A stretch of DNA of 29,125 nucleotides, taken from the IMG/VR virus record IMGVR_UViG_3300025000_000339, positions 1-29,125 of that record; one strand, given 5' to 3'. Source of the DNA: a virus. A model generated the notes under the pieces. The model made no database searches. It saw nothing but the letters and a program-made list of their open reading frames with translations, and was not told where the DNA came from. This document shows positions 1,515-24,666 of this stretch, piece by piece. The position numbers were made by a program, and so were the translations under genes. Position 1 is the first letter of the stretch. Every line of letters starts with the position of its first letter.

Positions 1515-3887
1515 ATGAAAGGAATTAAATTAAGTAATTATTTTGAAATTATTCACCCTGAGTATGTCTATCTAAAATTAACTCCAAATAATTCCATTGA
1601 AAACAAAAGTACAGATCGAATTGCTAAATCAATTTCTACAATCTTTCAAGGTGTATCTCGCCATATCAAAGTAGAAGAAGGAAAATTAATTAAACTATAT
1701 CCATTTAAAAGACAATTTATGGTTGGAACTAAATACAGTTATCAATTGCCAGAAAAAGTTTCATATTTTATTTTTATTGAAAAAGAAAATGTAGAATTCT
1801 ATTTTATTATTCCAAAAAATTACTTATCACTATTGAAAGAAAAGATTAAAGATTCATGGGCAAATGTTACTATTAAAGAAGTTGATGCAATTCCTTTATT
1901 TAGTGAAAAATCAACAAAATATCAGTTGGTTTATTCTAAAGAAAATGCACTTAGTTTATCTATTGATAAGCGTAGTAGCGAACTTCTTAGTTCAAATCTT
2001 AATGTTATAGATGTATTAGAGGATGGTGATAAAGTAGGGATATTCTACAATTTTATTCCTACTAATCAATTTCCATGGAAATCTGAGTATAAAAACACGA
2101 TTCAAAAAGTAAGAGATGGTTTACCAACTGACAGACAAAAGGCAAATATATGGTATTTAGGTAAAATCATTGTTTCCATTGTTGTTGAGATTAGTGATTT
2201 ACTAGGAGAAGTTACTTCTGGAAAACCATCTAAAAAGAAAGGATTATCAACTGATAGTTTGGTACAAATGGAGAGAGTAATCGAGAGAATGAACAAATCA
2301 GCAGTCAGTAAATCAACTTATTCCAAAGCAACAGATATTATATTAAACACTCAAATTATTATATTGTCAGAAAGCATAGATAAATTAAGAGAAATTAATC
2401 ATGTTAAAAGTTTATCTCAAAGTTTTGAAGTGATAAATGAAGAGGATGGTGGCAATTCTCTAAAAGCAAAGTATTATAGTCAAAAATTTAATCCTAATGA
2501 TTATTCTATAAAAGGAGCAGAAATCAACAAAATTTCATCTGGAGAATGTCAAAATTTTATTGCTTTAGCAGGTAGAAAAATACTTGATAGATTTAATTTT
2601 ATTGATAAAGTCAATACTCAGGAAACTCAAGTTCCAGAAGATTTAAGAACTGGTGTAATGAGTGTAGGAACAAACACGTATAGAGGAATTCATCAGGAAG
2701 CATTCCTTAGTACAGATAGAGAATATTCTCAGTTATGTCTAGTCTTAGTTGGCCCTACAAGAAGTGGAAAGAGTGTCCTAATTTCTAATCTTGCACGAAA
2801 TGCTATGCAACATAATGAATGCTGTATAATTTTTGATTTTATTGAAAATTGTGAATTATCAATGGAAATTGCTAGTGTATTTCCTGAAGAAAGAGTTAAA
2901 ATTATTGAATGTGGAGATATAAGCAAACTTCAAGGACTTGGTTATAATGAAGTAGGAATAGATTCTGATGTTTTTATTCAATATGACAATGCTAAAAAGC
3001 AAACTACTCAATTATTAACCCTTATTAATTCTGTAAATTCTGATGAAAAAACTCTTGCTCCAAGAATGGAAAGAATGTTGTGTTCGGCTTCTTTGATTAC
3101 TTTTATTCAAGATGGAAATATTAAATCTGTTTTTGATGTATTGACTAATCACAAAGTAAGAGAACGATATATGAGTAAAATTCCATCAAATCAAAAAGAA
3201 AATCTAGGTGAATATATTATCGCTTTGGACGAACTTAATGAATATGACAAACAAGGAAATCTTGTAGGCACTAAATTTAGTTTTATTACTGGAATTTTAG
3301 ATCGTTTGCAAAAACTTAAATCAAATACTTATATGGAATTAATGTTGAAAAAAGGAACTGAAGATAATATTAATTTAATTGATGAACTTCAAAAACCACA
3401 ACTAATTTGTCTTAGAATGCCAGAATCAATGTTTTCAACTGATGAAGAAAGAGATGTATATTGCACTTATTGGATGACTAAATTATGGTTGTCGTTACAG
3501 TTAAGAGCAGAAAAATTTAGAGATAAAGGAGATAGAGTCAAGGTCAATCTATTTATTGATGAATTATATCAAGTAAATAATACAGAATTATTTTTAACAG
3601 ATAAATTATCGAGACTCGCTAAATTCCGGCTTAAACCTATTATATCATGTCATTATCTCAATCAAATAAAAGGAATTAGAGATGAATTAAGAAGTGCAAA
3701 CGCAAGCTATATGTTATTATCAGGTTGTGATAAGCAAAATTACAATGAATTAAAGGATGAACTTCAACCTTATGAAATGGAAGATTTGTTAAAACTACCA
3801 AGGTATCATAGTTTGAATTTAATCAAATGCAAAGAAGGATATGCAAAGTTTATTACTAAATTACCTGCTCCTATAAAGGGAGTGTGA
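1515..3887 (+). CDS. VirB4/TraE-like conjugation ATPase
   Basis: A 790-residue protein with binding site GAGGAGG (1500-1506). The C-terminal half is a P-loop ATPase: Walker A GPTRSGKS at residues 413-420 inside LCLVLVGPTRSGKSVLIS, and Walker B VNLFIDELYQ at about 677-686. A later FRLKPIISCHYLNQI stretch fits the sensor region of VirB4/HerA-type motors. The N-terminal ~400 residues are beta-rich with no clear signal, as in VirB4 proteins that dock on the membrane channel. Length suits the VirB4/TraE family (about 600-850). It should power assembly of, or transport through, the envelope complex formed by its operon partners. A HerA/FtsK-like DNA translocase is the alternative, but the small membrane proteins before it and the M23 peptidase after it favour a type IV secretion role. 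Confidence 0.82.
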   Translation: MKGIKLSNYFEIIHPEYVYLKLTPNNSIENKSTDRIAKSISTIFQGVSRHIKVEEGKLIKLYPFKRQFMVGTKYSYQLPEKVSYFIFIEKENVEFYFIIPKNYLSLLKEKIKDSWANVTIKEVDAIPLFSEKSTKYQLVYSKENALSLSIDKRSSELLSSNLNVIDVLEDGDKVGIFYNFIPTNQFPWKSEYKNTIQKVRDGLPTDRQKANIWYLGKIIVSIVVEISDLLGEVTSGKPSKKKGLSTDSLVQMERVIERMNKSAVSKSTYSKATDIILNTQIIILSESIDKLREINHVKSLSQSFEVINEEDGGNSLKAKYYSQKFNPNDYSIKGAEINKISSGECQNFIALAGRKILDRFNFIDKVNTQETQVPEDLRTGVMSVGTNTYRGIHQEAFLSTDREYSQLCLVLVGPTRSGKSVLISNLARNAMQHNECCIIFDFIENCELSMEIASVFPEERVKIIECGDISKLQGLGYNEVGIDSDVFIQYDNAKKQTTQLLTLINSVNSDEKTLAPRMERMLCSASLITFIQDGNIKSVFDVLTNHKVRERYMSKIPSNQKENLGEYIIALDELNEYDKQGNLVGTKFSFITGILDRLQKLKSNTYMELMLKKGTEDNINLIDELQKPQLICLRMPESMFSTDEERDVYCTYWMTKLWLSLQLRAEKFRDKGDRVKVNLFIDELYQVNNTELFLTDKLSRLAKFRLKPIISCHYLNQIKGIRDELRSANASYMLLSGCDKQNYNELKDELQPYEMEDLLKLPRYHSLNLIKCKEGYAKFITKLPAPIKGV

Positions 3888-4528: not shown

Positions 4529-4603
4529 ATATGAAAGGGTTGATTTGAGATGATTTTTAAATTTGATAAAGGTGGAAACATGAATATGGAAGGAGATAAT
4601 GAA

Positions 4604-6091
4604 ATGGCTAAGAAGAAGGATAGGTTTGCACAGATGGATATTGGTTTAGTTAATGCTGTGAAGGAAGAGGTGATGGGGATGGTAAATGAAACTCAAAGTC
4701 AAGTTGCTGTTGGGTTCAATGAGATTTTGGATGAGAATGATAAGGTTTGGGATAAAGGGAGTAAAGACGGAGAGGTTGAGAGTGAGAAGGTGATGCCTCC
4801 TTTTGGTAGTTTGAGTAGTTTAAGTGGACAGGTAAAAGAAGAAACTGATTTTAGTGGTGAAGATGAAACTGAAGAAGAGAGGAATGAAGCTCAAAGGAAA
4901 AAAGATGAGTTAAAAATTAAACGTGAGCAAAACAAATTGAAGAAGGAAATGAAAAGTAGATTGGAAAAATTGAATAATTCGGAGGAATGGAAATTTGATA
5001 ACGTAATCGAGGTTTTTAGAAATAATGAATTAGTAAAATACCAAGGAGTTGCAAATATCGAAGTATTAAGTGCTCTTTTTGAACGAGGTGTACTTTCTTA
5101 TAATGGAGAGCTTCAAAGAGGCTATCGCAAAGGGAAAAACGGAGATTTATTAGCTGTACGCTCAAAGAAGCAAATCGATTTGATCTACTCAAGTATTATT
5201 AAAAATAAGATGCATGGTGGTTTCATAACATTTAATTGGAATCCTGAAAAGGGTGATATTAATTATGATGAAGATGAGCGTACCCTTTCTGGTTCTATTG
5301 ACCAAAAGTTGGATATTTTAGACGGGCAACACAGACTTTCTGCATTTTTGAAGGTTTTAAAGGCTTATCGTAAATCACCAGAGACAATTCCTAATCCTGC
5401 TGATTATCAAATTGGAATTGTAATCGAATTATTAGATGACGATTCAGCAAAAAGTCTATTCTCTGAATACGCAACTAAAGGTTTAAAAATTTCTCGTAGC
5501 CGTGGGGAATATTTAAATGTAGAAGATTATACAAACAAATTATGTAGAGATGTTATGAAAAAATCTGACTTAAAGGTAGAGGTAGTAAGCACATCCATTA
5601 AAGCTACCTCAGAAAATATTATCACATTTGGTGTACTTTCAAAAAATATTAAAGATAATTATAATCCAAAAACAAAGATAGACGTTGAAGAGTGTAGCAA
5701 ACATCTTATAGCTTTTGTAGATGCTATAATTCAAAACTTTCCTAAATTTATGGCAAGTAAGGATCTTATAGAGAGAAAAATTCTTCGCGAAAATAGTCTC
5801 ACAATGGAAGCCCTTGCTTGGAGTGGGTATTTTTATATTTCCAAATCATTGCAAGGAAAGAGCAAAGAAGAGATGTTAAGTATACTTTCTAAGTTTAATT
5901 CCAAAGTGAATTACAGAGGATTTATAGGAAATTTCCTAGATAAAGAAAATCCTATTTTCAGAAAAATAATGCGAGAGGGAAACAAAATGATTTCGACTTC
6001 TTCTTCAGTAACTTGGGTTAATAAGGTATTTAATGAATACATTTTAGAAGGTAAAAGTTTAGAAGAAATTGGAAGGGAAGAAGTTAAGTAA
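4604..6091 (+). CDS. DGQHR-domain protein (ParB/DndB-like fold)
   Basis: The start is placed at 4604 (MAKKKDRFAQ, 495 residues) because AAGGAG (4590-4595) is well spaced from it. In-frame ATGs at 4550, 4580 and 4586 have poorer sites. About 130 N-terminal residues are charged and low in complexity, including an acidic stretch (GEDETEEERNEAQRKKDEL) that should form a coiled coil. The C-terminal ~360 residues carry the DGQHR signature (LDILDGQHRLSAFLKVL), with an upstream LQRGYRKGKNG stretch and SEYATKGLKISRSRG. This domain occurs in DndB-type regulators of DNA modification and in phage and plasmid proteins of unknown role, and is related to the ParB fold. DNA binding or nucleotide hydrolysis is likely but unproven. 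It has its own promoter and terminator. Confidence 0.75.
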   Translation: MAKKKDRFAQMDIGLVNAVKEEVMGMVNETQSQVAVGFNEILDENDKVWDKGSKDGEVESEKVMPPFGSLSSLSGQVKEETDFSGEDETEEERNEAQRKKDELKIKREQNKLKKEMKSRLEKLNNSEEWKFDNVIEVFRNNELVKYQGVANIEVLSALFERGVLSYNGELQRGYRKGKNGDLLAVRSKKQIDLIYSSIIKNKMHGGFITFNWNPEKGDINYDEDERTLSGSIDQKLDILDGQHRLSAFLKVLKAYRKSPETIPNPADYQIGIVIELLDDDSAKSLFSEYATKGLKISRSRGEYLNVEDYTNKLCRDVMKKSDLKVEVVSTSIKATSENIITFGVLSKNIKDNYNPKTKIDVEECSKHLIAFVDAIIQNFPKFMASKDLIERKILRENSLTMEALAWSGYFYISKSLQGKSKEEMLSILSKFNSKVNYRGFIGNFLDKENPIFRKIMREGNKMISTSSSVTWVNKVFNEYILEGKSLEEIGREEVK

Positions 6092-6142: not shown

Positions 6143-8365
6143 TTATTTATTACTTTCTAAATATTCATCATAATACATCCATGTGAGTCTTACTCCGTCT
6201 AACAAACTTCCTGATGATTTTGCTTTACCTTTACAACAATGCCCTATATGAGATGCATTCTTATATTTTCTTTGTGCTTCTGCTAAAGAATTAAATATTT
6301 CTCCAGTCGTTAAACATATTACCTTAACAAAATTACTAGGCAGTAAAATCTCTTCTATTTCATCTTTGGTTTTTAATATATAATCCTTATAATACATCCA
6401 AACCATTTTTGTTCCATCTGAAAGTTTCCCTGCTGACTTATTAGTTTTATCTTTATCACAGCAAAATGATATGGCATCTGCTCGTATATTATATTTAATT
6501 CCGGCTTCATAGACATCATTGAATGTTTCTCTTGTTGTTAAACAAATTATTTCTCCTTTAAATCTTGTTTTAATTCTTTTATTATTCAATATACTTTGGA
6601 TCTCATCTTTGGTTTTTAAAACATACTCATCGTAATACATCCAGACTAAAGGTTTACCTGTAATCAAGTCAGTTCCTGCTGAAAAACTTGATTTTCTACA
6701 ACATGAAGATATACTATTGTATGATATATTATATTCTTCAGCAGCAGAAGTCATTGTGCTAAATATTTCTCCATTTGTTAAACAAATAACTTTGATTACC
6801 ATTCCATGCGGTTCTTCCAATTCTTCTTTTAATATATTTTCAATTTCATCTTTTGTTTTCATAATATACTCTTCGTAGAACATCCAAATTAATTTTGTAC
6901 CGTCCAATAATTTACCTGCTGTTCTTCTAATATCATTATCACTGCAACATTTTGAGATCCCAGTGGTATTATATTTCTTACCTGCTTCTGTTTGTGATTC
7001 AAAAACTTCTCCCGTTGTCACGCACACGACTCTTGTTTTTGAATTATAGTCACACCAACCTAATTCTGCTCCTTGCTTGAGATATTTACCAACGGTTTGA
7101 GTTCCTATTTTAAATAATTCAGAAATTTTTAATACGTTACGAGTGTCATTATACAAGTCACAAACTTCCTTGATCATATTTTTACATCCTGCCTCATGAC
7201 ACTCTAACCAATCAATATCTGATTCTTTAAAATTTAAAAGTTTTGGTAATCTTGACTGCATGATACTTCTCTTAATCCATTTCATTTCCGACTTTCTACA
7301 GTCAATGATTATGTAGTTTTTAACTTTATTTATTCTAGCTAACCATTCCTTGTCAAAATCGTTAATTTGTATTTCATCTAATGACATTTTCCAATTACCA
7401 TGATTTTCTTCATAATGCTGATTACCCATAATTTCACATATGATTCCGTTCATTTTATCTATGTAAAAGTCATATTGATACCTATCGCACCATTTGAAAG
7501 TCTTTGTTGATAATTGCATTATATAATTTTCTTGTAATATTTGTTTTAAGAAATTAGCAAAAAACTTTTCAGTATAAGGAATTTTATCTGAACAAATTCT
7601 GCACGAAAATCCCTTGTTTGATAAATCGCTAACTCTAATTTCTCTTTCACAACCACAATCAGGACATTTCATAAGAACAATTTCACTTGAACCAAAAGAA
7701 TACTTATAAGCATCTTCTTTAATAGCAAAATACTTCACCAAATGGGGATGAGTTAATGCAACAACGTTACACTGAATACATTCAATACTACCCATAAAAC
7801 CCTTAAAATTATTAGTAAAACGACAAATGCTTTTCAATTCTGACCCATGCTCTGGATGATCGAGGCATTTAAACCAATAACCTCTTTTCTTTTTATCAAA
7901 ACCATCTGAACCATGTCCAACATTTTTAGGACTTATTATATTTCCTTCTTTATCTATATTTTTCTCATAGTCCCAACGAGATAGTATATAATCTGCCATA
8001 TATTTTGGTAGGTATTTATAACACCAATCATAAAACGACAAACCTCTTCCTAAATATTTTTTACTTATTTTTCTAGATGAATTATTATGAGGTTTGTAAT
8101 AATATTTTCCATCTTCTTTTACATGGTATTTATAAACTTTCCATTCTACATTTTCTAATATTTCTCCGTTATCATCACATTGAACACTAACTAACACATC
8201 TGAATTATCTTTTAAGTCTTCAACCTTTACAATTATTTTTGTCCCTCTTTTAACATTTGTTCTCCCTTGTTTGTCTACTCGTCTTGGTATAAAATACCCC
8301 TTATTCTCAAAGTATTCTATATTAGTACCTGATAATTCTACCTCAACTTCTTTACTAATTAACAT
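6143..8365 (-). CDS. PD-(D/E)XK homing-type endonuclease with two zinc ribbons and four NUMOD1 repeats
   Basis: A 740-residue modular protein. Residues 1-110 are beta-rich. Two zinc-binding modules follow (KCLDHPEH...CIQC, then KCPDCG...SCRICS). The nuclease core is YDFYID...CEIMGNQHYEEN with D299, E311, Q316 and H317, the pattern of Vsr-related phage homing endonucleases of the I-Bth0305I (EDxHD) kind. The C-terminus has four NUMOD1 repeats starting near residues 444, 521, 602 and 680. Each begins V(I/V)C(V/L)T.GE.F, contains a Cys-Cys pair and ends W M.Y..(E/D)Y; linkers share KTKDEIE. NUMOD1 is a DNA-binding module that gives homing enzymes their specificity. It most likely spreads as a free-standing homing gene. 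Binding site GGAAGG precedes the ATG; a large terminator-like hairpin lies in the leader. Confidence 0.82.
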   Translation of the reverse strand: MLISKEVEVELSGTNIEYFENKGYFIPRRVDKQGRTNVKRGTKIIVKVEDLKDNSDVLVSVQCDDNGEILENVEWKVYKYHVKEDGKYYYKPHNNSSRKISKKYLGRGLSFYDWCYKYLPKYMADYILSRWDYEKNIDKEGNIISPKNVGHGSDGFDKKKRGYWFKCLDHPEHGSELKSICRFTNNFKGFMGSIECIQCNVVALTHPHLVKYFAIKEDAYKYSFGSSEIVLMKCPDCGCEREIRVSDLSNKGFSCRICSDKIPYTEKFFANFLKQILQENYIMQLSTKTFKWCDRYQYDFYIDKMNGIICEIMGNQHYEENHGNWKMSLDEIQINDFDKEWLARINKVKNYIIIDCRKSEMKWIKRSIMQSRLPKLLNFKESDIDWLECHEAGCKNMIKEVCDLYNDTRNVLKISELFKIGTQTVGKYLKQGAELGWCDYNSKTRVVCVTTGEVFESQTEAGKKYNTTGISKCCSDNDIRRTAGKLLDGTKLIWMFYEEYIMKTKDEIENILKEELEEPHGMVIKVICLTNGEIFSTMTSAAEEYNISYNSISSCCRKSSFSAGTDLITGKPLVWMYYDEYVLKTKDEIQSILNNKRIKTRFKGEIICLTTRETFNDVYEAGIKYNIRADAISFCCDKDKTNKSAGKLSDGTKMVWMYYKDYILKTKDEIEEILLPSNFVKVICLTTGEIFNSLAEAQRKYKNASHIGHCCKGKAKSSGSLLDGVRLTWMYYDEYLESNK

Positions 8366-8394
8366 AATTCTTATACCGCCTTCCTTAATAAGCT

Positions 8395-8446
8395 AAAAAA
8401 TGGGAAGAAGACACTCAAACTCTAAGGAAAGTTCAAGCGTCTTCTT
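8395..8446 (-). terminator. Terminator-like hairpin in the leader of the nuclease gene
   Basis: On minus-strand RNA 8428-8446 pairs with 8405-8423 over 19 bp (four G-U pairs) with a 4-base loop, followed by CCC, A and six U. It lies only about 30 bases upstream of the nuclease start, with no minus-strand gene before it for 400 bp. It may act as a leader attenuator or end a short leader RNA. Confidence 0.7.
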
Positions 8447-8521
8447 AATTACAAATTGCCAAACTTGCAAATCCAACAATTCAACCAAAATTATTATTTT
8501 ATAAACAACCCTCCACAACCC

Positions 8522-8544
8522 AAAAAAGAGAGTAATTTCTCTCT
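8522..8544 (-). terminator. Minus-strand terminator with no gene upstream
   Basis: A 6-bp stem (8527-8532 with 8539-8544), a 6-base loop, and a six-U tail on the minus strand (A-run 8522-8527, overlapping the stem by one base). No minus-strand gene precedes it, so it would stop a leader or antisense transcript. Confidence 0.6.
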
Positions 8545-8547
8545 CCC

Positions 8548-8576
8548 TTCCCAAAACCCCCACTCCATGCTATAAT
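8548..8576 (+). promoter_or_regulatory. Extended -10 promoter of the predicted small RNA
   Basis: TTCCCA (8548-8553, weak), a 17-base spacer, and a consensus TATAAT (8571-8576) preceded by TGC, giving an extended -10. Confidence 0.55.
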
Positions 8577-8583
8577 AAAATCA

Positions 8584-8702
8584 ACTTCTATCATCTAACT
8601 CAACTTCAATTTCTATCAATACTTCTATCATTCTATCTATCGTTTATACTTCAAAGGAAGATTTTTGGTGCTGTACAGCCAAATTCTTCCTTTCTTTTTA
8701 TT
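8584..8702 (+). ncRNA. Predicted ~120-nt small RNA with pyrimidine-rich repeats
   Basis: Transcription from the promoter at 8548-8576 would start near 8583 and stop at a strong terminator hairpin. The hairpin pairs 8653-8661 with 8685-8693, has inner TTTGG/CCAAA and GCTG/CAGC stems, and a T-rich tail to 8702. The body has no reading frame with a ribosome binding site. It contains four copies of TTCTATC(A) at 8586, 8611, 8623 and 8631, two of them inside the 11-base repeat ACTTCTATCAT. The repeats are single-stranded in the obvious fold and could bind a protein or RNA partner. Existence is inferred from promoter plus terminator only. Confidence 0.5.
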
Positions 8703-12348: not shown

Positions 12349-13248
12349 TTATTTAAGTGAATAATAATTATTTATGTATTCTGAGTAGTATTGCCATTTA
12401 AAGCCACCAGTCGTTTCTCGTTTGTGGTTACAGCATTCAGAAATGCGAGATTTGTGAATATTTAAAGACTTCATTATCTCTGTCATTGAATTCCATATTT
12501 TTATAATTGTTTCATTTTGAGACAGTTGTATTATTGATATCGGAGGACGACCAGTAATATTGCCGTGTGGTCTATTTTGTTTTAAAATTATCTGTTCATC
12601 ATATACACCTTTAAAATTAATAATATCAGAAATAGTTCTTAAACACACCAAGTATTCTTCTGCTAAATCTTTTTGATAATAACTGCCTGTAGCATATTTA
12701 TTTCTAATTTCTTTAGTTTGTGTACTATTGAGTTTTTTTCTAGTTTTACTCATTTTTAATCTTGTTTTCTCTGAAAAATTTTTACCATACATAGGATTGT
12801 TTTTACCTTTTAAGGCTGTTTGTAACTTATATCTTGTGCCTTCCGATACATAATGACCTCTCAATGATTCACTTATTTTTAGCTTTGATTCTTTTGAATG
12901 AAAATGGCCTTTAAAAAGAAATGTATCATCACCACCGACACTTATATTATAATAATCTTCATTTTCGACAGCTCTGTAATTTTTAATATATTTAATCTCT
13001 AATATGTTTAATTCTTCTTTGGAATATGCTATTTCTAATATTTTTCTGGTGAAATTCTCTTTTCCGTATTTTCTAATAGCATTTTTAAGATATTTACCAC
13101 TACCTAAGTAACTTTTCCAATTTCTATTAAAAATCTTTTGCCCAATATATTTATTTCCATTTATTATATTCGTTGTAATATATATAAACCCGTAAGCATT
13201 CAAATTATTTAGCAATATGTATTCAACACTAAATTCATTCTCTGTCAC
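12349..13248 (-). CDS. GIY-YIG homing endonuclease with NUMOD3 and NUMOD1 modules
   Basis: 299 residues starting at GTG 13248, with AAGGAG 8 bases upstream inside the preceding gene. The N-terminal GIY-YIG nuclease has GFIY (20-23), KYIGQK (YIG 34-36), the catalytic Arg region NRNWKSYLGSG and the metal-binding Glu in NILEIKYI (E84). Two NUMOD3-type segments follow (HSKESKLKISESLRG and NPMYGKNFSEKTRLKMSKTR), then a helix-turn-helix region (about 177-215) and a C-terminal NUMOD1 repeat (NSMTEIMKSLNIHKSRISEC...FKWQYYSEY). It overlaps the HNH gene by 4 bases (GTGA), so translation is coupled. A selfish DNA nuclease; no split host gene is visible here, so probably free-standing. Confidence 0.88.
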   Translation of the reverse strand: MTENEFSVEYILLNNLNAYGFIYITTNIINGNKYIGQKIFNRNWKSYLGSGKYLKNAIRKYGKENFTRKILEIAYSKEELNILEIKYIKNYRAVENEDYYNISVGGDDTFLFKGHFHSKESKLKISESLRGHYVSEGTRYKLQTALKGKNNPMYGKNFSEKTRLKMSKTRKKLNSTQTKEIRNKYATGSYYQKDLAEEYLVCLRTISDIINFKGVYDEQIILKQNRPHGNITGRPPISIIQLSQNETIIKIWNSMTEIMKSLNIHKSRISECCNHKRETTGGFKWQYYSEYINNYYSLK

Positions 13249-14387
13249 TTTATTCGCTCCTTATTTTTGTTTATGTATAATCGGATAACGATTGGTAGTA
13301 ATACACGAGTTGATTTCATGTATTCAGTTAATTGCTCTTTTGAATTGTTATAAGTTCCATACATATTGTGAAATGAACCACGTTGACTAGGATTATGACA
13401 CGAATCACATAATGTAATTCCATTATCTAAATCTAGCCTTGATTCTTCATTAGAGCTAAAGTTTTTTATATGATGAGCATTTAGTTTCCTTTTTTTATTT
13501 CCACAACATTGACAAGTATAATTATCCCTTTTGAATACTTCTGTTCTCCAATTTTTATATTCCAAAGATTTTCTAAACATCTCATTATCAGAGGATAGGC
13601 CACCTTTCCAATTATAATGATTATTTCCACTTCTATTTTCTAGTGAACATAATGGACATCTGTGCTTTTGAGTATATAATTCTGACCAACTAATTTTAAA
13701 ATAACCATGTTTTTGGCATTTCAATATTAATTTACTGTGAGTATTTTCATATTTTTTACTTATCAATGTGTATCCTAAATTGGAATTTGTTAACCATAAT
13801 TTTATATTCTCTATGGTATATGGATTATACGTGCTAAATAATTCAGGAATGTCTCCAATTTGCAAAGACCTCCACCATATATTCACTCTATATCCATCAT
13901 CATCAATTAGCTCTATTTTTTCATTTAGATAATTATATTCTTTTTCAATTACTTTAAGATAAATATTATGTGTTTTTAACCACAATTCAATATTATCTAT
14001 ACTGTGCGGATTATACATTCCAACTATAGCATGTTGATTATGTAACTCTTTGTAAGTAGATGAAATTTTAAATCCTTGTGAAGTAATAAAATTAAATTTA
14101 CTCGAATTATTTATGTATTCTCCAGATAGAAATTTTAAGTCTATATTGTTTACAACTAGATATAATTTAATATTTTCAATTGTATATGGATTATATTTCG
14201 CAAATATAGGCGGGGTTCTTCCTTGTTTTAATTTATCTAAACTTATCAAAACTTTATATCCTTCTATCGTTTTTGCTAGTAGTTTTTCTTTTGCGTTGTT
14301 ATAATGGTTGAATAATGGAATATATCCTCTATCGATAAATTCCTGCCTAGCATGATCTAATGTTATTTTAATATTATTGATGCCCAT
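13245..14387 (-). CDS. HNH homing endonuclease with repeated DNA-binding modules
   Basis: 380 residues. The C-terminal HNH nuclease has CQCC (292-295), AHH (304-306), a conserved DNGITLC stretch and CDSCH (327-331); the Cys pairs form a structural zinc site. The N-terminal 250 residues hold three repeats beginning YNP(Y/H)(T/S)I.NI.L(Y/W)L, spaced roughly 75-80 residues, each followed by an L.....EY.N stretch; the third is joined to a zinc-like C.KH...CPLC segment. Such repeats likely recognise DNA. The leader carries two adjacent palindromes, one masking the ribosome binding site. Its last codons contain the ribosome binding site of the GIY-YIG gene. Confidence 0.85.
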   Translation of the reverse strand: MGINNIKITLDHARQEFIDRGYIPLFNHYNNAKEKLLAKTIEGYKVLISLDKLKQGRTPPIFAKYNPYTIENIKLYLVVNNIDLKFLSGEYINNSSKFNFITSQGFKISSTYKELHNQHAIVGMYNPHSIDNIELWLKTHNIYLKVIEKEYNYLNEKIELIDDDGYRVNIWWRSLQIGDIPELFSTYNPYTIENIKLWLTNSNLGYTLISKKYENTHSKLILKCQKHGYFKISWSELYTQKHRCPLCSLENRSGNNHYNWKGGLSSDNEMFRKSLEYKNWRTEVFKRDNYTCQCCGNKKRKLNAHHIKNFSSNEESRLDLDNGITLCDSCHNPSQRGSFHNMYGTYNNSKEQLTEYMKSTRVLLPIVIRLYINKNKERIK

Positions 14388-17453: not shown

Positions 17454-18983
17454 TTAAACCATTACCATAATATTAGTACAGTATTCTCTATACTTTGTTA
17501 CCTCTCTATAATCCCAATCAGTTAACATAACTTTTAATTCTTTATTAGAATACATATTACAAAGACAAGCATTAAAACAATTTACACAATTCTTGTCGCA
17601 TACTTTAAATAACTTATTATTCTCAATTTCCAAAATTGGACACAATAGCTTTATTATATATTTATTTGTCTCAGAAATTGGTTTACTTAATTTATTATTA
17701 TATTTCGGAACTTCTCCTCTAGTCACTGTAATTAACTCTAATTCTTCTAATTGTTTAATCACTTTTACTAAAGTAGTCCTAGACTTTATTCCAGTCACTT
17801 GTGTCATCTGATTGTATGACATATAAAATTGACCACTTTTCACAGAATATCTTTTACTATGGACAAGCAAAGAATATAATACTAATTGATTATTCTTGCC
17901 TTTGATTTTAATAATTTCCATTATTTCTTCCATACTAACATCAATGTTTAAATTCTTAATCACAAAACTACAATTATTTGTATAAACATAATCAATAATT
18001 TCTGCAATATCTAGTAACACTGCATCCCATTTAGTAGAATAAGTTGTTTTATCTTGCTGATTCATCCATTCTGTAACCCATTCCTTATTATCTTCCTCAG
18101 ATACACCTAAATGTTTATAATACTTGATAATATTAAACAAAGCATTATGTCTTGATCCTGCTATTTGTAATCCATTAGTAATTACATTTTCAACTTGCTC
18201 AACTGTATATTTCTCATCAACATTATTTTTATATTCAGGCAATGGTTTATGTTTTTCTGTGATTGCTTCTATTTTGTATTGTTGTTCAGGAGTAACTAAA
18301 ATATCTTCTTCTTTTTCTAATATATCTAGCAATATTTCTTTTGGCATTGTTTCAATTGATAAAACATAATTATAATCCTTAATTGGTTTTAATCCTTTGT
18401 CATAATCACAAAACCAACAAATGTTATTAGTTTTAAGATTTACTCCTAAAGGTAATTTTACGCCTAGTGTCTTTCCTGTTTTAGTTAGACATGGTCTTAA
18501 TTCTACTTCTCCATAATCAATATTAAGTAAATCCGTAGCATTAAGAATCATTAGATATATTTTATGTATATCACTATTATAAACTGGTTCATCAAAGAAT
18601 ATCTCTATATGATAACCTTTTGACCCACTTAGACTAATATGAATATACTTTCCTGCTATACCTATATTTTGTAACGCATCAACTATTTTATCTACTGCCC
18701 ATTTACACATTGCTTCATCTTTTATATCCACATCAAAACACATAAATGAAGTTATTATATTTCCTGAAAATACTCCAATGGTCTTTTGTTGTGTAAGATG
18801 CTTCAATATCATAGAGTCATTCAATGGAAATTTATTTTCTCTATATGTAATAATATCTTTTTCTGTATTATGGTATTGTTCAATGAATTTCTTTCTATAA
18901 GTCACATATAATTTACCTATCTTTTGTGCTATTTCAATACCATTTTTAATATAGACTTTCTTTTTTGCTGATACCTCTTCCAC
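17454..18983 (-). CDS. Archaeo-eukaryotic-type (AEP) primase
   Basis: 509 residues starting at GTG 18983; an in-frame TGA lies three codons upstream, so no longer start exists, and AAAGGA lies 13 bases before. The AEP core is visible: catalytic D84-V-D86 in CFDVDIKD, the SGSKGYH motif (119-125) in HISLSGSKGYHIEIFF, and the third motif region around GKTLGVKLPLG with a nearby CWFC. The middle (about 260-330) resembles the helical PriCT-type extension. Residues about 370-440 look like a winged helix (YMSYNQMTQVTGIKSRTTLV). A Cys cluster (CDKNCVNCFNACLC) near the C-terminus likely binds zinc. Such primases start phage or plasmid replication by making primers. No helicase domain is present, so one must be supplied elsewhere. 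Confidence 0.85.
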   Translation of the reverse strand: MEEVSAKKKVYIKNGIEIAQKIGKLYVTYRKKFIEQYHNTEKDIITYRENKFPLNDSMILKHLTQQKTIGVFSGNIITSFMCFDVDIKDEAMCKWAVDKIVDALQNIGIAGKYIHISLSGSKGYHIEIFFDEPVYNSDIHKIYLMILNATDLLNIDYGEVELRPCLTKTGKTLGVKLPLGVNLKTNNICWFCDYDKGLKPIKDYNYVLSIETMPKEILLDILEKEEDILVTPEQQYKIEAITEKHKPLPEYKNNVDEKYTVEQVENVITNGLQIAGSRHNALFNIIKYYKHLGVSEEDNKEWVTEWMNQQDKTTYSTKWDAVLLDIAEIIDYVYTNNCSFVIKNLNIDVSMEEIMEIIKIKGKNNQLVLYSLLVHSKRYSVKSGQFYMSYNQMTQVTGIKSRTTLVKVIKQLEELELITVTRGEVPKYNNKLSKPISETNKYIIKLLCPILEIENNKLFKVCDKNCVNCFNACLCNMYSNKELKVMLTDWDYREVTKYREYCTNIMVMV

Positions 18984-19229: not shown

Positions 19230-19257
19230 CTCCTTTAATTTTTAATTATTAAAGGAG
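19230..19257 (-). promoter_or_regulatory. Hairpin masking a ribosome binding site
   Basis: CTCCTTTAAT (19230-19239) and ATTAAAGGAG (19248-19257) are perfect inverted copies with an 8-base loop. On minus-strand RNA the AAAGGAG used by the 62-residue gene lies in the 3' arm. The lack of a U-tract argues against a simple terminator. Confidence 0.55.
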
Positions 19258-19308
19258 TCACTAATAAATAGCAACCCCACAATATTAATATTATTTAAAT
19301 CATTTATA

Positions 19309-19515
19309 CTAATCCCAGTTAAATTCAACATCATCTTCAAATAACTTATTATATAATTCAGTAAAACCAATTGTATAAGTGTCAACAATTTCATGATTCT
19401 CATCACTTATATTTACATTAAATGTATGTTCTAAATAATCAATCTGCATATCAATAAAGTAATCCTCATTAACTTTTAATAATAATTTAATTTCTTCAAT
19501 TTTAGATTTTTTCAT
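19309..19515 (-). CDS. Small acidic hypothetical protein
   Basis: 68 residues with binding site AGGAGGAA before the ATG. Acidic, helix first (KIEEIKLLLKVNEDYFIDMQ) then strands (HTFNVNISDENHEIVDTYTI). No motif recognised; low net charge and size could suit a phage inhibitor-type protein, but that is only a guess. Confidence 0.55.
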   Translation of the reverse strand: MKKSKIEEIKLLLKVNEDYFIDMQIDYLEHTFNVNISDENHEIVDTYTIGFTELYNKLFEDDVEFNWD

Positions 19516-19558
19516 ATTGTATTCCTCCTATATTTTAAATTATTTTATTTATGTATTA

Positions 19559-19663
19559 TTAAATATCTAAATCTAAAACAATATGATATTTTCTCCAATG
19601 GTCTCTAATCTTCTCATATTGTTCATCAGTCTAAAGGTTAGATAATAATTTGATTAACCCTAT
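19559..19663 (-). pseudogene. Remnant of a small gene with an amber codon
   Basis: A minus-strand frame without start encodes IGLIKLLSNL, an in-frame TAG (19631-19633), and TDEQYEKIRDHWRKYHIVLD to a TAA at 19559-19561. The composition is protein-like but there is no ribosome binding site or start. It is probably the 3' end of a decayed gene. A 13-base direct repeat (19632-19644 and 19695-19707) covers its amber codon and the sequence upstream. Confidence 0.4.
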
Positions 19664-19707
19664 TTAAAAATATTGATTTATAAGCATTTTCTATTAAAGG
19701 TTAGATA
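19632..19707. repeat. Direct repeat pair TAAAGGTTAGATA
   Basis: Two perfect 13-base copies at 19632-19644 and 19695-19707, 63 bases apart, within decayed sequence between two genes. Could be a duplication scar or a protein site. Confidence 0.5.
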
Positions 19708-19787
19708 GCGAAACTTTCCAACCCATCTCAAGTCATTGGTATATAATAATTATGTATATTTATGGTGGGTACTGAAACTACCTACCA

Positions 19788-20465
19788 TCATTTTGATTTA
19801 AGAATCATGTCTATCAATTCATATGGTTTTTGTCTATGAGGATTAAATCTAACTAATTTATACCCATTACTCCTTATATATTCCTCTCTAATCATTTCTT
19901 TTTCACCAGAGTATGAAGAATGTCCATTCTCATCTATTTCTATAGCTATATTTTCATATAAAACAAAGTCTATCAAATAACTACCACAACTTACTTGCTT
20001 CTGAATATATTCATCTCCGAATGAGAAAGATAGATAATCCCAATATTTTTGTTCAAATTTCTTGAATTTCAATCTATGACCATTTGACAACTCTTCATAC
20101 AATTTTGGATTTTGTTTTATAAGTTCTTCTCTAACTAATTTCGCAATATCAGAACCAGCTAAAAGAATACTAAACTTCAACATTATTTTTAAAGGGAAAA
20201 TTGTTAATGCAGAATAATTATTTTTAGAAGACACTAAATTAAATCCCGTTGATAATTTGAATTCTTTCAACTCTTGTCCTTTTATAACTCGCAGTCCTAA
20301 TAAATCTAATTCTTGCTTATTGCTTTTAATAAAGTATCTAATTAAATCCTTATTTACTTCAAAATAGTCTGCAATAATATCTGAAGTAACAATGTAATTG
20401 TTTCCAGACAAAATATTTAAATTTTTTGCATTATTTAATATTTGTAATACATTACCATTACTCAT
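19788..20465 (-). CDS. Antirepressor-like N-terminus fused to a PD-(D/E)XK (Vsr/DUF559-like) nuclease domain
   Basis: 225 residues with binding site AGAAGGAAAAG before the ATG. Residues 1-70 (NYIVTSDIIADYFEVNKDLI, then RYFIKSNKQELDLLG) resemble the Bro/KilA-type DNA-binding start of phage antirepressors, followed by a helical middle (KIMLKFSILLAGSDIAKLVR). Residues 150-225 are a small nuclease fold: SCGSYLIDFVLYENIAIEID with D166, E176 and D178, then ENGH (H182) and a GYKLVRFNP strand. This is the spacing of Vsr/DUF559-type endonucleases. The gene sits behind the interleaved inverted repeats of 20480-20658, which would form its leader. It may be a mobile nuclease or a regulator that cuts DNA. 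Confidence 0.68.
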   Translation of the reverse strand: MSNGNVLQILNNAKNLNILSGNNYIVTSDIIADYFEVNKDLIRYFIKSNKQELDLLGLRVIKGQELKEFKLSTGFNLVSSKNNYSALTIFPLKIMLKFSILLAGSDIAKLVREELIKQNPKLYEELSNGHRLKFKKFEQKYWDYLSFSFGDEYIQKQVSCGSYLIDFVLYENIAIEIDENGHSSYSGEKEMIREEYIRSNGYKLVRFNPHRQKPYELIDMILKSK

Positions 20466-20479
20466 TTTCTTTTCCTTCT

Positions 20480-20658
20480 TTCTTATTTTATTAGTAATTT
20501 CAGTTCATAAAAGACAACTGCGAATCATCATTTATAAACACAAAAACTACTTAGAGAAAAGTCAGAACAAATCTAACTCTCCTCTTCGCAGTTTCTTACT
20601 AATAAAATAAGAAGAAGAAATGTTAGAATAGTTTTCACTACTCTCTAAGTAGTTTTTG
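20480..20658. promoter_or_regulatory. Three interleaved perfect inverted repeats, pseudoknot-like region
   Basis: Repeat A: 20481-20497 with 20596-20612 (17 bp). Repeat B: 20516-20524 with 20585-20593 (9 bp), nested inside A. Repeat C: 20541-20557 with 20642-20658 (17 bp); its left arm lies in the loop of A/B and its right arm lies outside. A/B and C therefore cross, forming either a pseudoknot or, in RNA, alternative hairpins. On the minus strand this is the leader of the antirepressor/nuclease gene; arm A abuts its ribosome binding site. No protein frame is present. Confidence 0.7.
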
Positions 20659-20685
20659 GAAAATATTTTTAAATTTAATTTTTAA

Positions 20686-20718
20686 TACAAAAGAGAGCTA
20701 AAATAAATTTTAACTCTC
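20686..20718 (-). terminator. Terminator isolating the interleaved-repeat leader
   Basis: GAGAG (20693-20697) and CTCTC (20714-20718) with an inner TAAAAT/ATTTTA stem, followed on the minus strand by TTTTGTATT. It would stop transcripts arriving from the late region just before the repeats. Confidence 0.65.
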
Positions 20719-20752
20719 CAAAATCACTAAAATATGCAATTATTCATTTTAC

Positions 20753-20925
20753 CTAAACCCTGTAACCCTTACTATAAGCCACTTTCATTTTCTTAATAAC
20801 CCCATCAAACTGGAATTTTATTTGTTCATAATGTAATTTGACTATTTCTCACTCTCACTTAATGTCAATTTAATAATATAAACACTCCAAATTATAAAAC
20901 CAATTATTATAGAATACATCATCAT
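20753..20925 (-). pseudogene. Single-span membrane protein gene broken by a frameshift
   Basis: ATG 20925, with AGGAC 8 bases upstream, gives 27 residues (MMMYSIIIGFIIWSVYIIKL then TLSESEK) and a TAG at 20842-20844. One base earlier the next frame continues IVKLHYEQIKFQFDGVIKKM ... AYSKGYRV to a TAG at 20753-20755. One extra A at the AAA before the stop would give a 57-residue protein with an N-terminal membrane helix and a basic tail. The short form may still be made. It follows the lysis cassette on the same strand. Confidence 0.45.
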
Positions 20926-21091
20926 ATTATTTTGTCCTATCTCTAATATATTAAAAAATCTTATAATTTGTTAACTCCGAAACATTACTCTGACAACACT
21001 TTCAGGCCCACAATAAATTGATTCGCACAGAATTAGGTCTGTATTGAGTTTGATTTGTTCAATAGGGTAATTGTAAGGGTCTGAGAATTAG

Positions 21092-21112
21092 AAGGCTAAA
21101 AATGGCCTTTAA
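21092..21112 (-). terminator. Weak hairpin after the holin operon
   Basis: A short GGC-cored stem (AAGGC with GCCTT, loop of 8) follows the 42-residue gene by about 20 bases. The U-tail is poor, so the terminator call is tentative. Confidence 0.4.
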
Positions 21113-21128
21113 TTTGTGATATTTTTAA

Positions 21129-21257
21129 TTATTGGTTTACTTTATAAATTAAATCATCTTCAAGGTGTAAATATATAATTGTTTTAAAATAAATATCTAT
21201 ACAAATATTTGTGTATATTTTATCAATCTTTTTAATGATATTTCTCATTATTGTCAT
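21129..21257 (-). CDS. 42-residue hypothetical protein downstream of the holin
   Basis: ATG 21257 follows GAGGAGAAA, a strong site that overlaps the end of the holin gene; only 2 bases separate the holin stop from this start. The product (MTIMRNIIKKIDKIYTNICI, then a TIIYLHLEDDLIY stretch) is basic at the N-terminus and moderately hydrophobic. Tight coupling to the holin suggests a lysis-related role, unproven. Confidence 0.55.
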   Translation of the reverse strand: MTIMRNIIKKIDKIYTNICIDIYFKTIIYLHLEDDLIYKVNQ

Positions 21258-22134: not shown

Positions 22135-22209
22135 TGCATTTGCCACCTTCCTTAAATTATGATATACTGGTTACTAACAACCTTATATTCGTACTGGAAC
22201 ATGAGGTTG

Positions 22210-22241
22210 GGGAAGAAGGGTTGGCAACTGCCCCTCTTCCC
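22210..22241. promoter_or_regulatory. Strong GC-rich hairpin in the XhlA gene leader
   Basis: GGGAAGA (22210-22216) pairs with TCTTCCC (22235-22241), with an inner GGG/CCC stem and a TTGGCAACTG loop. It stands out in a stretch that is otherwise almost only A and T. On the minus strand it would be in the 5' UTR of the XhlA-like gene, about 75 bases from the start. Confidence 0.55.
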
Positions 22242-22270
22242 AATTTAATTTAATATACATTAATTAATTA

Positions 22271-22299
22271 ATATTAATTTAACTTTTATTAATTATCAA
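22271..22299 (-). promoter_or_regulatory. Promoter for the XhlA-like/holin genes
   Basis: TTGATA (22294-22299), a 17-base spacer and TAATAT (22271-22276) on the minus strand. Confidence 0.5.
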
Positions 22300-22303
22300 A
22301 AAA

Positions 22304-22312
22304 TGTTATAAT
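22304..22312 (+). promoter_or_regulatory. Plus-strand extended -10 facing the amidase 3' end
   Basis: TGTTATAAT (TG at 22304-22305, TATAAT at 22307-22312) is a full extended -10 without a good -35. It would give a short plus-strand RNA across the GC-rich segment 22313-22380. Confidence 0.45.
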
Positions 22313-22388
22313 AGGTTGCGGAGTCTTACGACAAAGCGAAACAGGGGAATGTGGGTGGGCAATTCACAGACCCCTGTTTCATTTATTT
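22313..22388 (+). ncRNA. Possible ~70-nt structured RNA, antisense at its end to the amidase stop
   Basis: The segment 22313-22380 is about 53% GC in a region of about 25-30%. It ends in a perfect 10-bp stem, GAAACAGGGG (22338-22347) with CCCCTGTTTC (22371-22380), with an inner TGTG/CACA stem, then ATTTATTTCC. With the extended -10 at 22304 this reads as a short plus-strand RNA. The same hairpin could instead protect the 3' end of the amidase mRNA, whose TGA (22379-22381) overlaps it. Confidence 0.4.
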
Positions 22389-22636
22389 CCTGATAAATAT
22401 TTTGCGACTTTTTGAACTGTATCAAATTTTGTATTTCCTGAAAGATAAATACGATTTGGATGAGTTGGAATGTCTGGTCCTCCTATTATAATTAACTGTT
22501 TACTTAAAAACGCTTCCTTGGGACAAGTTTTATCTATATGTCTAATAAATATTGCACAATTTCCATTCTTTTCTGCTACATCATTTCCACTCCAAAAATC
22601 ATCTTTTGAAAATAAGAGGATACAGGTATTTAACAT
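22379..22636 (-). other. Internal in-frame start giving a free cell-wall-binding domain
   Basis: AAAGGAG (22645-22651) lies 8 bases before ATG 22636, which is Met-214 of the amidase and in the same frame. Translation from here would give 85 residues, exactly the C-terminal binding domain. Internal starts of this kind are established for several Gram-positive phage endolysins (for example CD27L, CTP1L and Lys170), where the extra domain joins the full enzyme. Confidence 0.65.
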
Positions 22637-23275
22637 ATTATTATCTCCTTTATTATTTGTTGATTGTATTGATTGATTTGATCTTGATGGGGGAGTAGAA
22701 ATTTGTTTTTCTACATACTTAATGCCTAAAAAATTACAAATTCCTTTTGCTATAGAACTTGAAACTTTGTCATCCCATACAGAATCTTTCATTAATGCTT
22801 CTTCTTTGGGATTAGAAATAAATCCAATTTCAGTTAATATAGCAGGACAATCTGTTTCCCTAAGTACATGATAATTTGCAGTCTTTAAACCTCTATCAAA
22901 CAGTCCAGTAGCAGGAACAAGTTCTTTATGTATTGATTCTGCCAACATTCTGCCTTTACCTGTCGATGCCAATGAAAAAGTTTCTACGCCATTTGCCGAA
23001 TAATCTGAGTATGAATTACAATGAATACTAATAAAATAATCACTTTTCCAAGCATTTGACTGATTTGTTACATCCCATAAATCACCATCTTGAATTACTA
23101 ATGTTTCAAGTCTATTAAATTTCAGTTTTGTAGATACTGAATCTGCTATTTCTTTTGTTTCTATATATTCCTTATATCCTGATGGACCAATTGCACCAGG
23201 ATCTATTCCATTTGAACTTGAATTATTAACTCCTTTTGGGCCATGACCAGCGTTTATACATATTTTATAAGGCAT
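22379..23275 (-). CDS. N-acetylmuramoyl-L-alanine amidase endolysin (Amidase_3)
   Basis: 298 residues; AGGTGG before the ATG. The catalytic domain (1-185) has NAGHG (H11), the Glu in SGYKEYIETKEIA (E36), SIHCN (H85) and the catalytic Glu in LTEIGFISNP (E149), the complete zinc set of the family. It cleaves the lactyl amide between MurNAc and the stem peptide. A Ser/Pro/Gln/Asn-rich linker (about 186-212) leads to an ~85-residue C-terminal domain (LSKQLIIIGGPDIPTHP, then YLSGNTKFDTVQKVAKYL) that resembles a single CW_binding_2-type unit. A perfect internal ribosome binding site and ATG start precisely at that domain. There is no signal peptide, so export depends on the holin at 21260-21643. 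Confidence 0.88.
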   Translation of the reverse strand: MPYKICINAGHGPKGVNNSSSNGIDPGAIGPSGYKEYIETKEIADSVSTKLKFNRLETLVIQDGDLWDVTNQSNAWKSDYFISIHCNSYSDYSANGVETFSLASTGKGRMLAESIHKELVPATGLFDRGLKTANYHVLRETDCPAILTEIGFISNPKEEALMKDSVWDDKVSSSIAKGICNFLGIKYVEKQISTPPSRSNQSIQSTNNKGDNNMLNTCILLFSKDDFWSGNDVAEKNGNCAIFIRHIDKTCPKEAFLSKQLIIIGGPDIPTHPNRIYLSGNTKFDTVQKVAKYLSGNK

Positions 23276-23298: not shown

Positions 23299-24369
23299 CT
23301 AAGACAATTCTTTAATTTTGGATTCTAATATCTCTTCAATCTTGTCAAAATCCCAATACCAAATTTCTAAGAAATTATATCCATTTACTAAGGCATATTC
23401 TTTCTTGCGTCTGTCATGTTCAACTTGTCTTTCAAAATCTTCTATAGTTTTATGAAATCCCTTGCAAAACTTTTCGTGTTGTCCACCTTGATATTCTATA
23501 AGAAGATTATATTGAGGTAAAAAGAAGTCATAAGACAGTAATCCATTTCGTAAACCAACTAGACCATCAAATTTCTTTTGAGGAATATAATATTTATTAT
23601 TTTGTTTGTCTAGTAAATTATTATAATCAAACTCACTTATTTCTATGAAGTTATTATAGATAAAAACTTCTTCACATCTTTTTTCTCCTTTTGGATTATT
23701 ACATTTTGGACATCTTCTATTATGTGTAAATTTATTCGGTGTAACTGGATATTCTGTACCACATTTTTCATGACGCATTAAAATAGGTGTGTTGGCGTTG
23801 ATATACTCTCCAAGAATTGTATATTCATCACCAGTCAACTCTTTTACTCTTTTTTCAAACAAAGGAGCATATTTTAATCGCCAATTTTCTTTATTTTTTA
23901 AAGATGAAGTCTCATTAAATCTATATATTCTAGGTTTTTTAACTTTAGATTTCGGTTTAGTAATAATTATTTTTGATGGTAAGCAATATTTGCAATATTC
24001 CATTTTGAAAGTCCTTAAGAATGAATCTGGGGTTATTGATAAAATATTACCACATTTTAAATGTTTGATTAATATATGTATTCTTGCTGTAATATACTCG
24101 CCTAAAACTTCATATTGTCCATTAGTTTTTTGAAATACTTCTTTTTTAAATTCCTCAGTAGTCTTCTTAGGTGTTCCAAAACATGTAGGACATCTTCTGC
24201 CTGCATTTAAAATCTTATAAGGCGTAACTGGATATTCGGTTCCACAAATATTGTGCTTCATCATAATATGAGTTTTATTATTTATATATTCCTTCCCCAT
24301 TACTGAATATTCTTCCCCATATAATTCATAAACATCTTTTATGAATTGCTCGATTGTACTTTTCTTCAT
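23299..24369 (-). CDS. PD-(D/E)XK endonuclease with three zinc-knuckle repeats
   Basis: 356 residues from ATG 24369 (MKKSTIEQF), with AAAGGTGG 8 bases upstream; GTG 24381 overlaps that site. Three N-terminal repeats of about 58 residues share Y..(L/M)G.EYI...(T/I).I...H..CG....(V/I)TP..F/I...(R)C..C, so each should bind one zinc and DNA. The third is KCGTEYPVTPNKF...RRCPKC. The C-terminal nuclease has YDFFLPQYNLLIEYQGGQHE (D281, E292, Q297, H298) and a later HD..K..Y..., the QH-type fold shared with phage homing enzymes. It sits between the terminator of the 61-residue gene and the amidase gene, as an inserted mobile gene would. Confidence 0.78.
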   Translation of the reverse strand: MKKSTIEQFIKDVYELYGEEYSVMGKEYINNKTHIMMKHNICGTEYPVTPYKILNAGRRCPTCFGTPKKTTEEFKKEVFQKTNGQYEVLGEYITARIHILIKHLKCGNILSITPDSFLRTFKMEYCKYCLPSKIIITKPKSKVKKPRIYRFNETSSLKNKENWRLKYAPLFEKRVKELTGDEYTILGEYINANTPILMRHEKCGTEYPVTPNKFTHNRRCPKCNNPKGEKRCEEVFIYNNFIEISEFDYNNLLDKQNNKYYIPQKKFDGLVGLRNGLLSYDFFLPQYNLLIEYQGGQHEKFCKGFHKTIEDFERQVEHDRRKKEYALVNGYNFLEIWYWDFDKIEEILESKIKELS

Positions 24370-24402
24370 TACATTTCCCACCTTTCACTTCAGAAAATTC
24401 CA

Positions 24403-24438
24403 CAAACAAAAAGAAGACTAAATTGGTTTAGTCTTCTT
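24403..24438 (-). terminator. Terminator overlapping the 61-residue gene's end
   Basis: A perfect 12-bp stem (24411-24422 with 24427-24438) with a 4-base loop and a TTTTTGTTTG tail on the minus strand. It includes the last codons of the 61-residue gene. Confidence 0.88.
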
Positions 24439-24603
24439 CCACTCCATTAACAAACTATTTAGTTTGTCATTGTCTATAAATATCCACATCTTCTTACGAC
24501 TATTTTCATTAAGTGCAGATAATTTATACCTTAATCCATTAGACATTAGATAATCCCTCAGGGGTAAACTGTAACAAGGGAATAATTGAACATCATTTTC
24601 CAT
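24418..24603 (-). CDS. Small phage protein, DUF5659-like
   Basis: 61 residues; AAAGGAATG before the ATG. MENDVQLFPCYSLPLRDYLM, then SNGLRYKLSALNENSRKKMW and FIDNDKLNSLLMEWKK. The layout (aromatic N-terminal strand, a G.RY strand, a W.F strand, then a C-terminal LL.EW helix) is that of DUF5659-type phage proteins. Function unknown. It is last in the tail/protease transcription block, before a strong terminator. Confidence 0.6.
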   Translation of the reverse strand: MENDVQLFPCYSLPLRDYLMSNGLRYKLSALNENSRKKMWIFIDNDKLNSLLMEWKKTKPI

Positions 24604-24666
24604 AAATTACATTCCTTTTACTTTAATTTTAGCAAAAACATCTTGACATTTTATTTTCCACCTCTT

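Follow-up and report, generated by a model that had tools for sequence, protein, structure and literature searches.

Antirepressors contribute to the lysogeny/lysis decision, and the known RNA control of antirepressors is by antisense RNAs. These RNAs, c4 of P1/P7 and sar of P22, control antirepressor translation at the ribosome-binding site but are separate molecules that act in trans. Among T4-like phages, homing endonuclease genes such as I-TevI, segB, and mobE have their Shine-Dalgarno sequences buried in a leader helix (PMC2988022, PMC3014915), and the leader of the MS2 maturation gene adopts a final long-distance pairing that hides the Shine-Dalgarno sequence after an earlier fold has exposed it (PMC6733600); both provide mechanistic precedents for the RNA described here. 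The T4 gene 32 operator is a pseudoknot in a phage mRNA leader that is linked to translational control and bound by the gene's own product, while translational riboswitches are knotted leaders with a ligand-binding aptamer core in which one of two exclusive folds hides the Shine-Dalgarno sequence. The present locus shares a feature with each of these systems: a phage nuclease gene is preceded by a leader that is predicted to be knotted and to bury its Shine-Dalgarno sequence. It differs from the single hairpins of T4-like phages in being a predicted double pseudoknot of ~200 nt, with a conserved alternative fold, that occurs in unrelated phages; from the MS2 leader in sequence and topology, being the pseudoknotted product of a DNA phage; and from c4 and sar in pairing in cis with its own gene, as a single-copy element in its own record rather than a complementary RNA from another locus. 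Unlike the gene 32 operator, it precedes unrelated proteins, and, unlike the riboswitches, it has no Rfam match and is switch-like in its predicted folds.

The window, by which we mean the whole stretch of DNA analyzed (29,125 bases of an IMG/VR virus record), contains three inverted repeats immediately upstream of a minus-strand gene (Table 1). A sequence-only reading had described all three as perfect and not easily produced by chance; all are real, although repeat A is one base pair longer than the 17 bp that it gave. The longest perfect inverted repeat in 1000 dinucleotide shuffles was 12 bp, which puts repeats A and C far outside what chance produces, and no other tile of the window holds a repeat of at least 14 bp; repeats of at least 9 bp arose at 0.29 per shuffle, and B by itself is therefore nonsignificant. 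Repeat C crosses A and B, as had been noted. The predicted fold of the minus strand (-71.7 kcal/mol, z -8.6) is better than that of the plus strand (-44.1 kcal/mol, z -5.6), and in every homolog the minus strand folds better than its complement, with stronger z-scores. Among the conserved pairs, counted on the minus strand, G-U cells number 22 and A-C cells 2, as would be expected of an RNA of this strand. The strand neutrality expected of a DNA cruciform or origin was not seen, given this G-U bias and the z-scores; of the two roles suggested earlier, a folded RNA regulator is favored and an origin or cruciform is disfavored.

Table 1. Features of the leader, the gene that follows it, and the underlying DNA repeats (window coordinates)
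Feature	Position	Strand	Remarks
Whole leader RNA	20463..20663	-	Unit conserved in L037/L019, L097, and L101
Helix C, 5' arm	20642..20658	-	Pairs with 20541-20557
Hairpin P0, GUAGU-GAAA-ACUAU	20628..20641	-	In 4/4 leaders; G-U to A-U change
UCUAAC	20622..20627	-	Invariant; unpaired in pseudoknot; pairs with GUUAG (20573-20577) in long hairpin
Helix A, 5' arm	20596..20620	-	Anti-Shine-Dalgarno UUUCUUC (20614-20620) plus 20596-20613
Helix B, 5' arm AACUGCGAA	20585..20593	-	U-A to G-C in L097
Hairpin P2	20558..20580	-	A-U to G-C plus G-U changes; nested extension 20553-20585
Helix C, 3' arm	20541..20557	-	17 bp; 3 pairs double-changed in the four homologs
Hairpin P3, B 3' arm in loop	20503..20539	-	Arms 20531-20539 and 20503-20511
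Helix B, 3' arm UUCGCAGUU, P3 apical loop	20516..20524	-	Same B covariation
Helix A, 3' arm	20472..20497	-	Contains Shine-Dalgarno GAAGGAA (20472-20478)
Long hairpin X, alternative fold built on C	20541..20658	-	Predicted; Shine-Dalgarno free
Start codon of controlled gene	20463..20465	-	From sequence
Controlled gene, 225 aa	19788..20465	-	Antirepressor-type N-terminal domain and DUF559/Vsr-like nuclease domain
Intrinsic terminator-like hairpin and T tail	20692..20719	-	Just upstream of leader; terminator scan
Repeat A (DNA)	20480-20497/20596-20613		18 bp, no mismatch
Repeat B (DNA)	20516-20524/20585-20593		9 bp
Repeat C (DNA)	20541-20557/20642-20658		17 bp

The leader recurs in three other virus contigs, with 98.5% (L019/L037), 83.5% (L097), and 69.7% (L101) identity to that of the window. 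In all of them it lies directly after an intrinsic terminator, and the start codon of an antirepressor-nuclease gene follows directly, so that the earlier description of a minus-strand leader of such a gene behind a terminator holds in all four viruses; the terminator was also flagged by the scan in L037, and a hairpin is predicted at this position in L097 and L101. A search for a promoter in the interval from the terminator to helix C gave no convincing candidate. Scanning viral contigs with one arm of C returned two contigs with both arms, L019 and L037, which are 99.9 to 100% identical to each other and represent one virus; its match to the window leader covers 20463-20662 at 98% identity, bounded by the start codon at one end and by a point just upstream of C at the other, while other shared blocks are 65 to 83% identical. 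L097 was found by a search with the protein of that virus, and the protein behind its leader is 63% identical. The fourth leader, L101, lies in the 122-kb record of L094 and was matched at an E value of 1.3e-20 by a covariance model (R2) built without B and C; the gene behind it matches Phage_pRha (1.2e-24) and, weakly, RusA, and blastp found no similarity between its protein and that of the window. Since two of the four leaders compared are 98.5% identical, the set amounts to about three independent sequences. No Rfam 15 family scored above its gathering threshold, and the matches obtained were at chance level and mostly to microRNA families. Nucleotide similarity revealed no relative in 50,697 phage records, and a model scan of sampled Bacillota genomes returned only a 70-nt match in G236, judged to be due to chance; as these collections comprise phage records and Bacillota samples, relatives may exist elsewhere. 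Matches to a single arm of C in 34 further viral contigs and B-arm pairs in L056 to L061 were also set aside as chance, R2 or R3 having given no convincing match there, as were short AT-rich matches in Clostridia genomes and matches in Staphylococcus plasmids. As judged from its sequences, the leader is a new RNA family.

The conserved unit exceeds the segment originally delimited: it runs from about 20663 as far as the start codon (20465-20463), and six helices (A, B, C, P0, P2, and P3) are kept. From 5' to 3' the order is C5', P0, A5', B5', P2, C3', P3 with B3' in its loop, A3' with the Shine-Dalgarno sequence, and the start codon; the full P0 hairpin (20625-20644) overlaps C by 3 nt, and B connects the loop of P3 with the strand that precedes P2. 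Because C crosses A and B crosses P3, the six helices can coexist only as a double pseudoknot. Across 74 pairs in an alignment of the four sequences, 96.9% of cells are paired and 17 pairs are double-changed, compared with a mean of 6.1 in shuffles, none of 500 of which reached this count, and 0 to 4 in controls with slid partners; the contributions of A, P0, P2, and P3 to these figures come from an alignment fitted to those same helices. Helix A, including the Shine-Dalgarno pairing, accounts for 25 pairs in this alignment, 7 of them double-changed. A MAFFT alignment of three sequences, made without any fitting to structure, gives standard pairs in every one of the 146 cells of B, C, P0, P2, and P3 that have letters on both sides, and it contains 6 double changes, against 2.1 in shuffles (reached by 1 of 500) and 0 to 1 with slid partners. 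P3 contributes five double-changed pairs to the structure-fitted alignment and two to the MAFFT alignment. Helices B and C together show four double changes on the R2 alignment (1/500), and both are absent from the R2 model.

Individual exchanges illustrate these counts. Helix C of L097 has changed CU..AG to UC..GA and still comprises 17 bp (CAAAAACUAC/GUAGUUUUUG to CAAAAAUCAC/GUGAUUUUUG), and helix B has passed from AACUGCGAA/UUCGCAGUU to AACGGCGAA/UUCGCCGUU, with CUGCGA/UCGCAG as its core in L101, where there are further changes. The alignment fitted by the covariance model places B one base out of register in L097 and L101, and B was therefore judged on the three-sequence MAFFT alignment and by duplex folding. 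Covariation of the arms in related elements was the check set in advance for the structure, and B, C, and the additional changes in L101 passed it; compensatory changes exceed both the shuffles and the slid controls, as expected of a conserved structured RNA. These comparisons support a conserved double pseudoknot as the probable fold of the minus-strand RNA. The sequence-only reading had left a choice between a pseudoknot and competition of A/B with C; covariation speaks for the former, and A/B and C, being compatible within a double pseudoknot, do not compete. A purely nested two-state model derived from the window alone was rejected. Its energies (-71.7 kcal/mol for the fold that hides the Shine-Dalgarno sequence and -59.8 kcal/mol for the hairpin fold) favor, in the window, a fold in which P2 and P3 have additional pairs, and L097 breaks these pairs in the outer part of P2 and the upper part of P3; the pseudoknot was accordingly taken as the state in which the Shine-Dalgarno sequence is hidden, and the hairpin of the nested model, hairpin X, was retained because it is stable in all four homologs.

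Helix A covers the Shine-Dalgarno sequence in 4/4 leaders even though both of its arms have changed: UUUCUUC/GAAGGAA is replaced by UUUUCUUUC/GAAGGAAAA and CACUUCUUUC/GAAAGAAGUG, and L097 and L101 keep the pairing in different letters. Leaderless genes of related viruses (L094 and L095) are preceded by AAGAAAGAAGGAAA-type strings resembling ribosome-binding sites, from which it follows that the anti-Shine-Dalgarno arm complements a common ribosome-binding site of these viruses. The element thus adjoins the start codon and pairs with the Shine-Dalgarno sequence of its own gene in every member, as a cis-acting translational leader should. The first ~125 nt have as their lowest-energy fold, in all four homologs, the long hairpin X, which buries the anti-Shine-Dalgarno strand and leaves the Shine-Dalgarno sequence free. 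Its stability in each homolog was reached by only 1 to 3 of 300 permuted sequences in which C, P0, and P2 were held, and in the window it is the best fold at every transcript length before the helix A 3' strand has been made. UCUAAC is invariant though the pseudoknot leaves it unpaired, and the P2 partner of GUUAG, with which it pairs in hairpin X of the window, keeps a U-G wobble in 4/4 sequences. Of the 201 bases considered in the window, 68 are paired in X and also, to different partners, in the nested fold that hides the Shine-Dalgarno sequence; the passage from X to the latter meets an estimated barrier of ~19 kcal/mol, an upper estimate confined to nested folds. Two exclusive folds that differ in access to the Shine-Dalgarno sequence, the arrangement found in riboswitches, are thus present in silico, and these observations support a conserved two-state RNA. 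As C is kept in both folds, any switch lies between helix A and the inner part of X.

We consider that this is probably a cis-acting structured phage leader RNA that controls translation of antirepressor-nuclease genes by a choice between hairpin X and the pseudoknot. Hairpin X would form first during transcription, leaving the Shine-Dalgarno sequence free and translation on; once the 3' strand of helix A had been made, the pseudoknot would form and translation would cease, the outcome being decided by folding kinetics or by some factor stabilizing one of the two states. Since the same leader stands before proteins with unrelated domains, a shared signal or an intrinsic timer is likelier in this role than the product of the gene itself. 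A sensorless version of the scheme, in which a static inhibitory leader acts as a kinetic timer, translated while in X and permanently off when the pseudoknot closes, is a possibility to which we give appreciable but lesser weight. The predominance of X among all prefixes that precede the helix A 3' strand, its conservation in 4/4 homologs, the barrier of ~19 kcal/mol, and the MS2 precedent (PMC6733600) are in keeping with a timer; a double pseudoknot with conserved unpaired bases exceeds what a timer requires, and the barrier is an upper estimate for nested folds. More tentatively, the leader may found a new riboswitch-like class, a double-pseudoknot sensor of a host or infection signal that forms a module joined to unrelated antirepressors and gates translation of antirepressor-nucleases.

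It is unlikely that the structure serves, as in T4, to silence read-through from upstream while a shorter transcript, started inside the leader and devoid of the anti-Shine-Dalgarno strand, yields the late protein. This arrangement is established for T4 I-TevI, I-TevII, I-TevIII, segB, and mobE (PMC2988022), and in the window and in L101 the upstream genes (a single gene in L101) are codirectional and end at the terminator, with TTTATAAAT present at ~20535; the L037 upstream gene is divergent, however, a scan for sigma-70-like promoters in the window and L037 found none within the leader, and helices B, C, and P3 would be unnecessary for plain read-through silencing. We regard as improbable a transcription attenuator with P2 and a T run as terminator and C/X as antiterminator: the scan marked P2 as resembling a terminator in both the window and L037, and C shares its 3' strand, but the T run stands apart from the stem and is partly paired, and both helix B and the placement of helix A over the Shine-Dalgarno sequence would go unexplained. 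Slightly less credible still is an independent small or protein-binding RNA, active in trans and simply adjacent to these genes, as its compact knotted fold and its occurrence beside unrelated genes might suggest, given that it always ends at the start codon, pairs with the Shine-Dalgarno sequence of its own gene, and changes with it. A cruciform, origin, or recombination site in the DNA, which the perfect inverted repeats and the variable gene content around the leader in related viruses might bring to mind, is very improbable, since only one strand keeps G-U pairs, no replication gene adjoins the leader in the loci of L037 and L101, and Shine-Dalgarno pairing would be purposeless in DNA.

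The gene behind the leader in the window encodes a protein with a Pfam DUF559 match (3.5e-8). Its N-terminal part resembles antirepressor-annotated proteins of Gordonia, Mycobacterium, and Paenibacillus phages; its C-terminal nuclease part matches the endonuclease-like protein of PDB entry 3hrl by sequence profile and weakly resembles the I-Bth0305I catalytic domain by fold comparison, the structure model of the 225-aa protein being of moderate confidence (pLDDT 72.9). The leader is not tied to the whole gene family, as the homologs in L046, L064, L065, L067, and L070 are leaderless, and so are the relatives in the other phages L062 and L063. The relative in L046, a Clostridioides phage, has an unrelated leader of its own (~1290-1450), in which GGAAGAAAG/CUUUCUUCC and UCUUCCUUUU/AAAAGGGAGA, the latter with the Shine-Dalgarno sequence, are mutually exclusive; this is perhaps a convergent switch. 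Gene and leader are both missing from a close relative (window 19252-21186 versus L091 5319-5728), so that the slot is empty in L091; in L088 it contains an HNH version truncated by the end of the contig, in L095 a Bro-N protein without the leader, and in further relatives other genes.

The window has other features of its own. A second long structured leader on the minus strand (8366-8700; -83 kcal/mol over 334 nt, with several hairpins and terminator-like stems) precedes a 740-aa gene at 6143-8365. That gene belongs to a nuclease-like set, with those at 12349-13248, 13245-14387, and 23299-24381, comprising GIY-YIG (together with NUMOD3), HNH, and long proteins that lack a Pfam match; modules of this set recur in other contigs from the same sample, and L082 carries the block at 23324-24631 at 83% identity. 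Hairpins of very high stability, GTTGGGGAAGAAGGG.. and GAAACAGGGG..CCCCTGTTTC, lie at 22150-22400, the latter overlapping the stop end of the amidase gene at 22379-23275. A 790-aa ATPase-like protein (1515-3887; PHROG 5156) is related to SPO1 gp27.4 and to a Terrisporobacter phage protein, and its gene adjoins one for an M23 peptidase, a conjugation-like pair in a phage. A TOTE AEP-type primase (17454-18983) and a DndB-like protein (4550-6091) are encoded by this one virus.

In summary, since the RNA hides the ribosome-binding site of its gene, it probably represents a new type of RNA switch, and its defined helices make the family amenable to point mutation and rescue. If our reading is correct, a conserved knotted leader acting in cis would provide phages with a new way to time or sense the decision between lysogeny and lysis.
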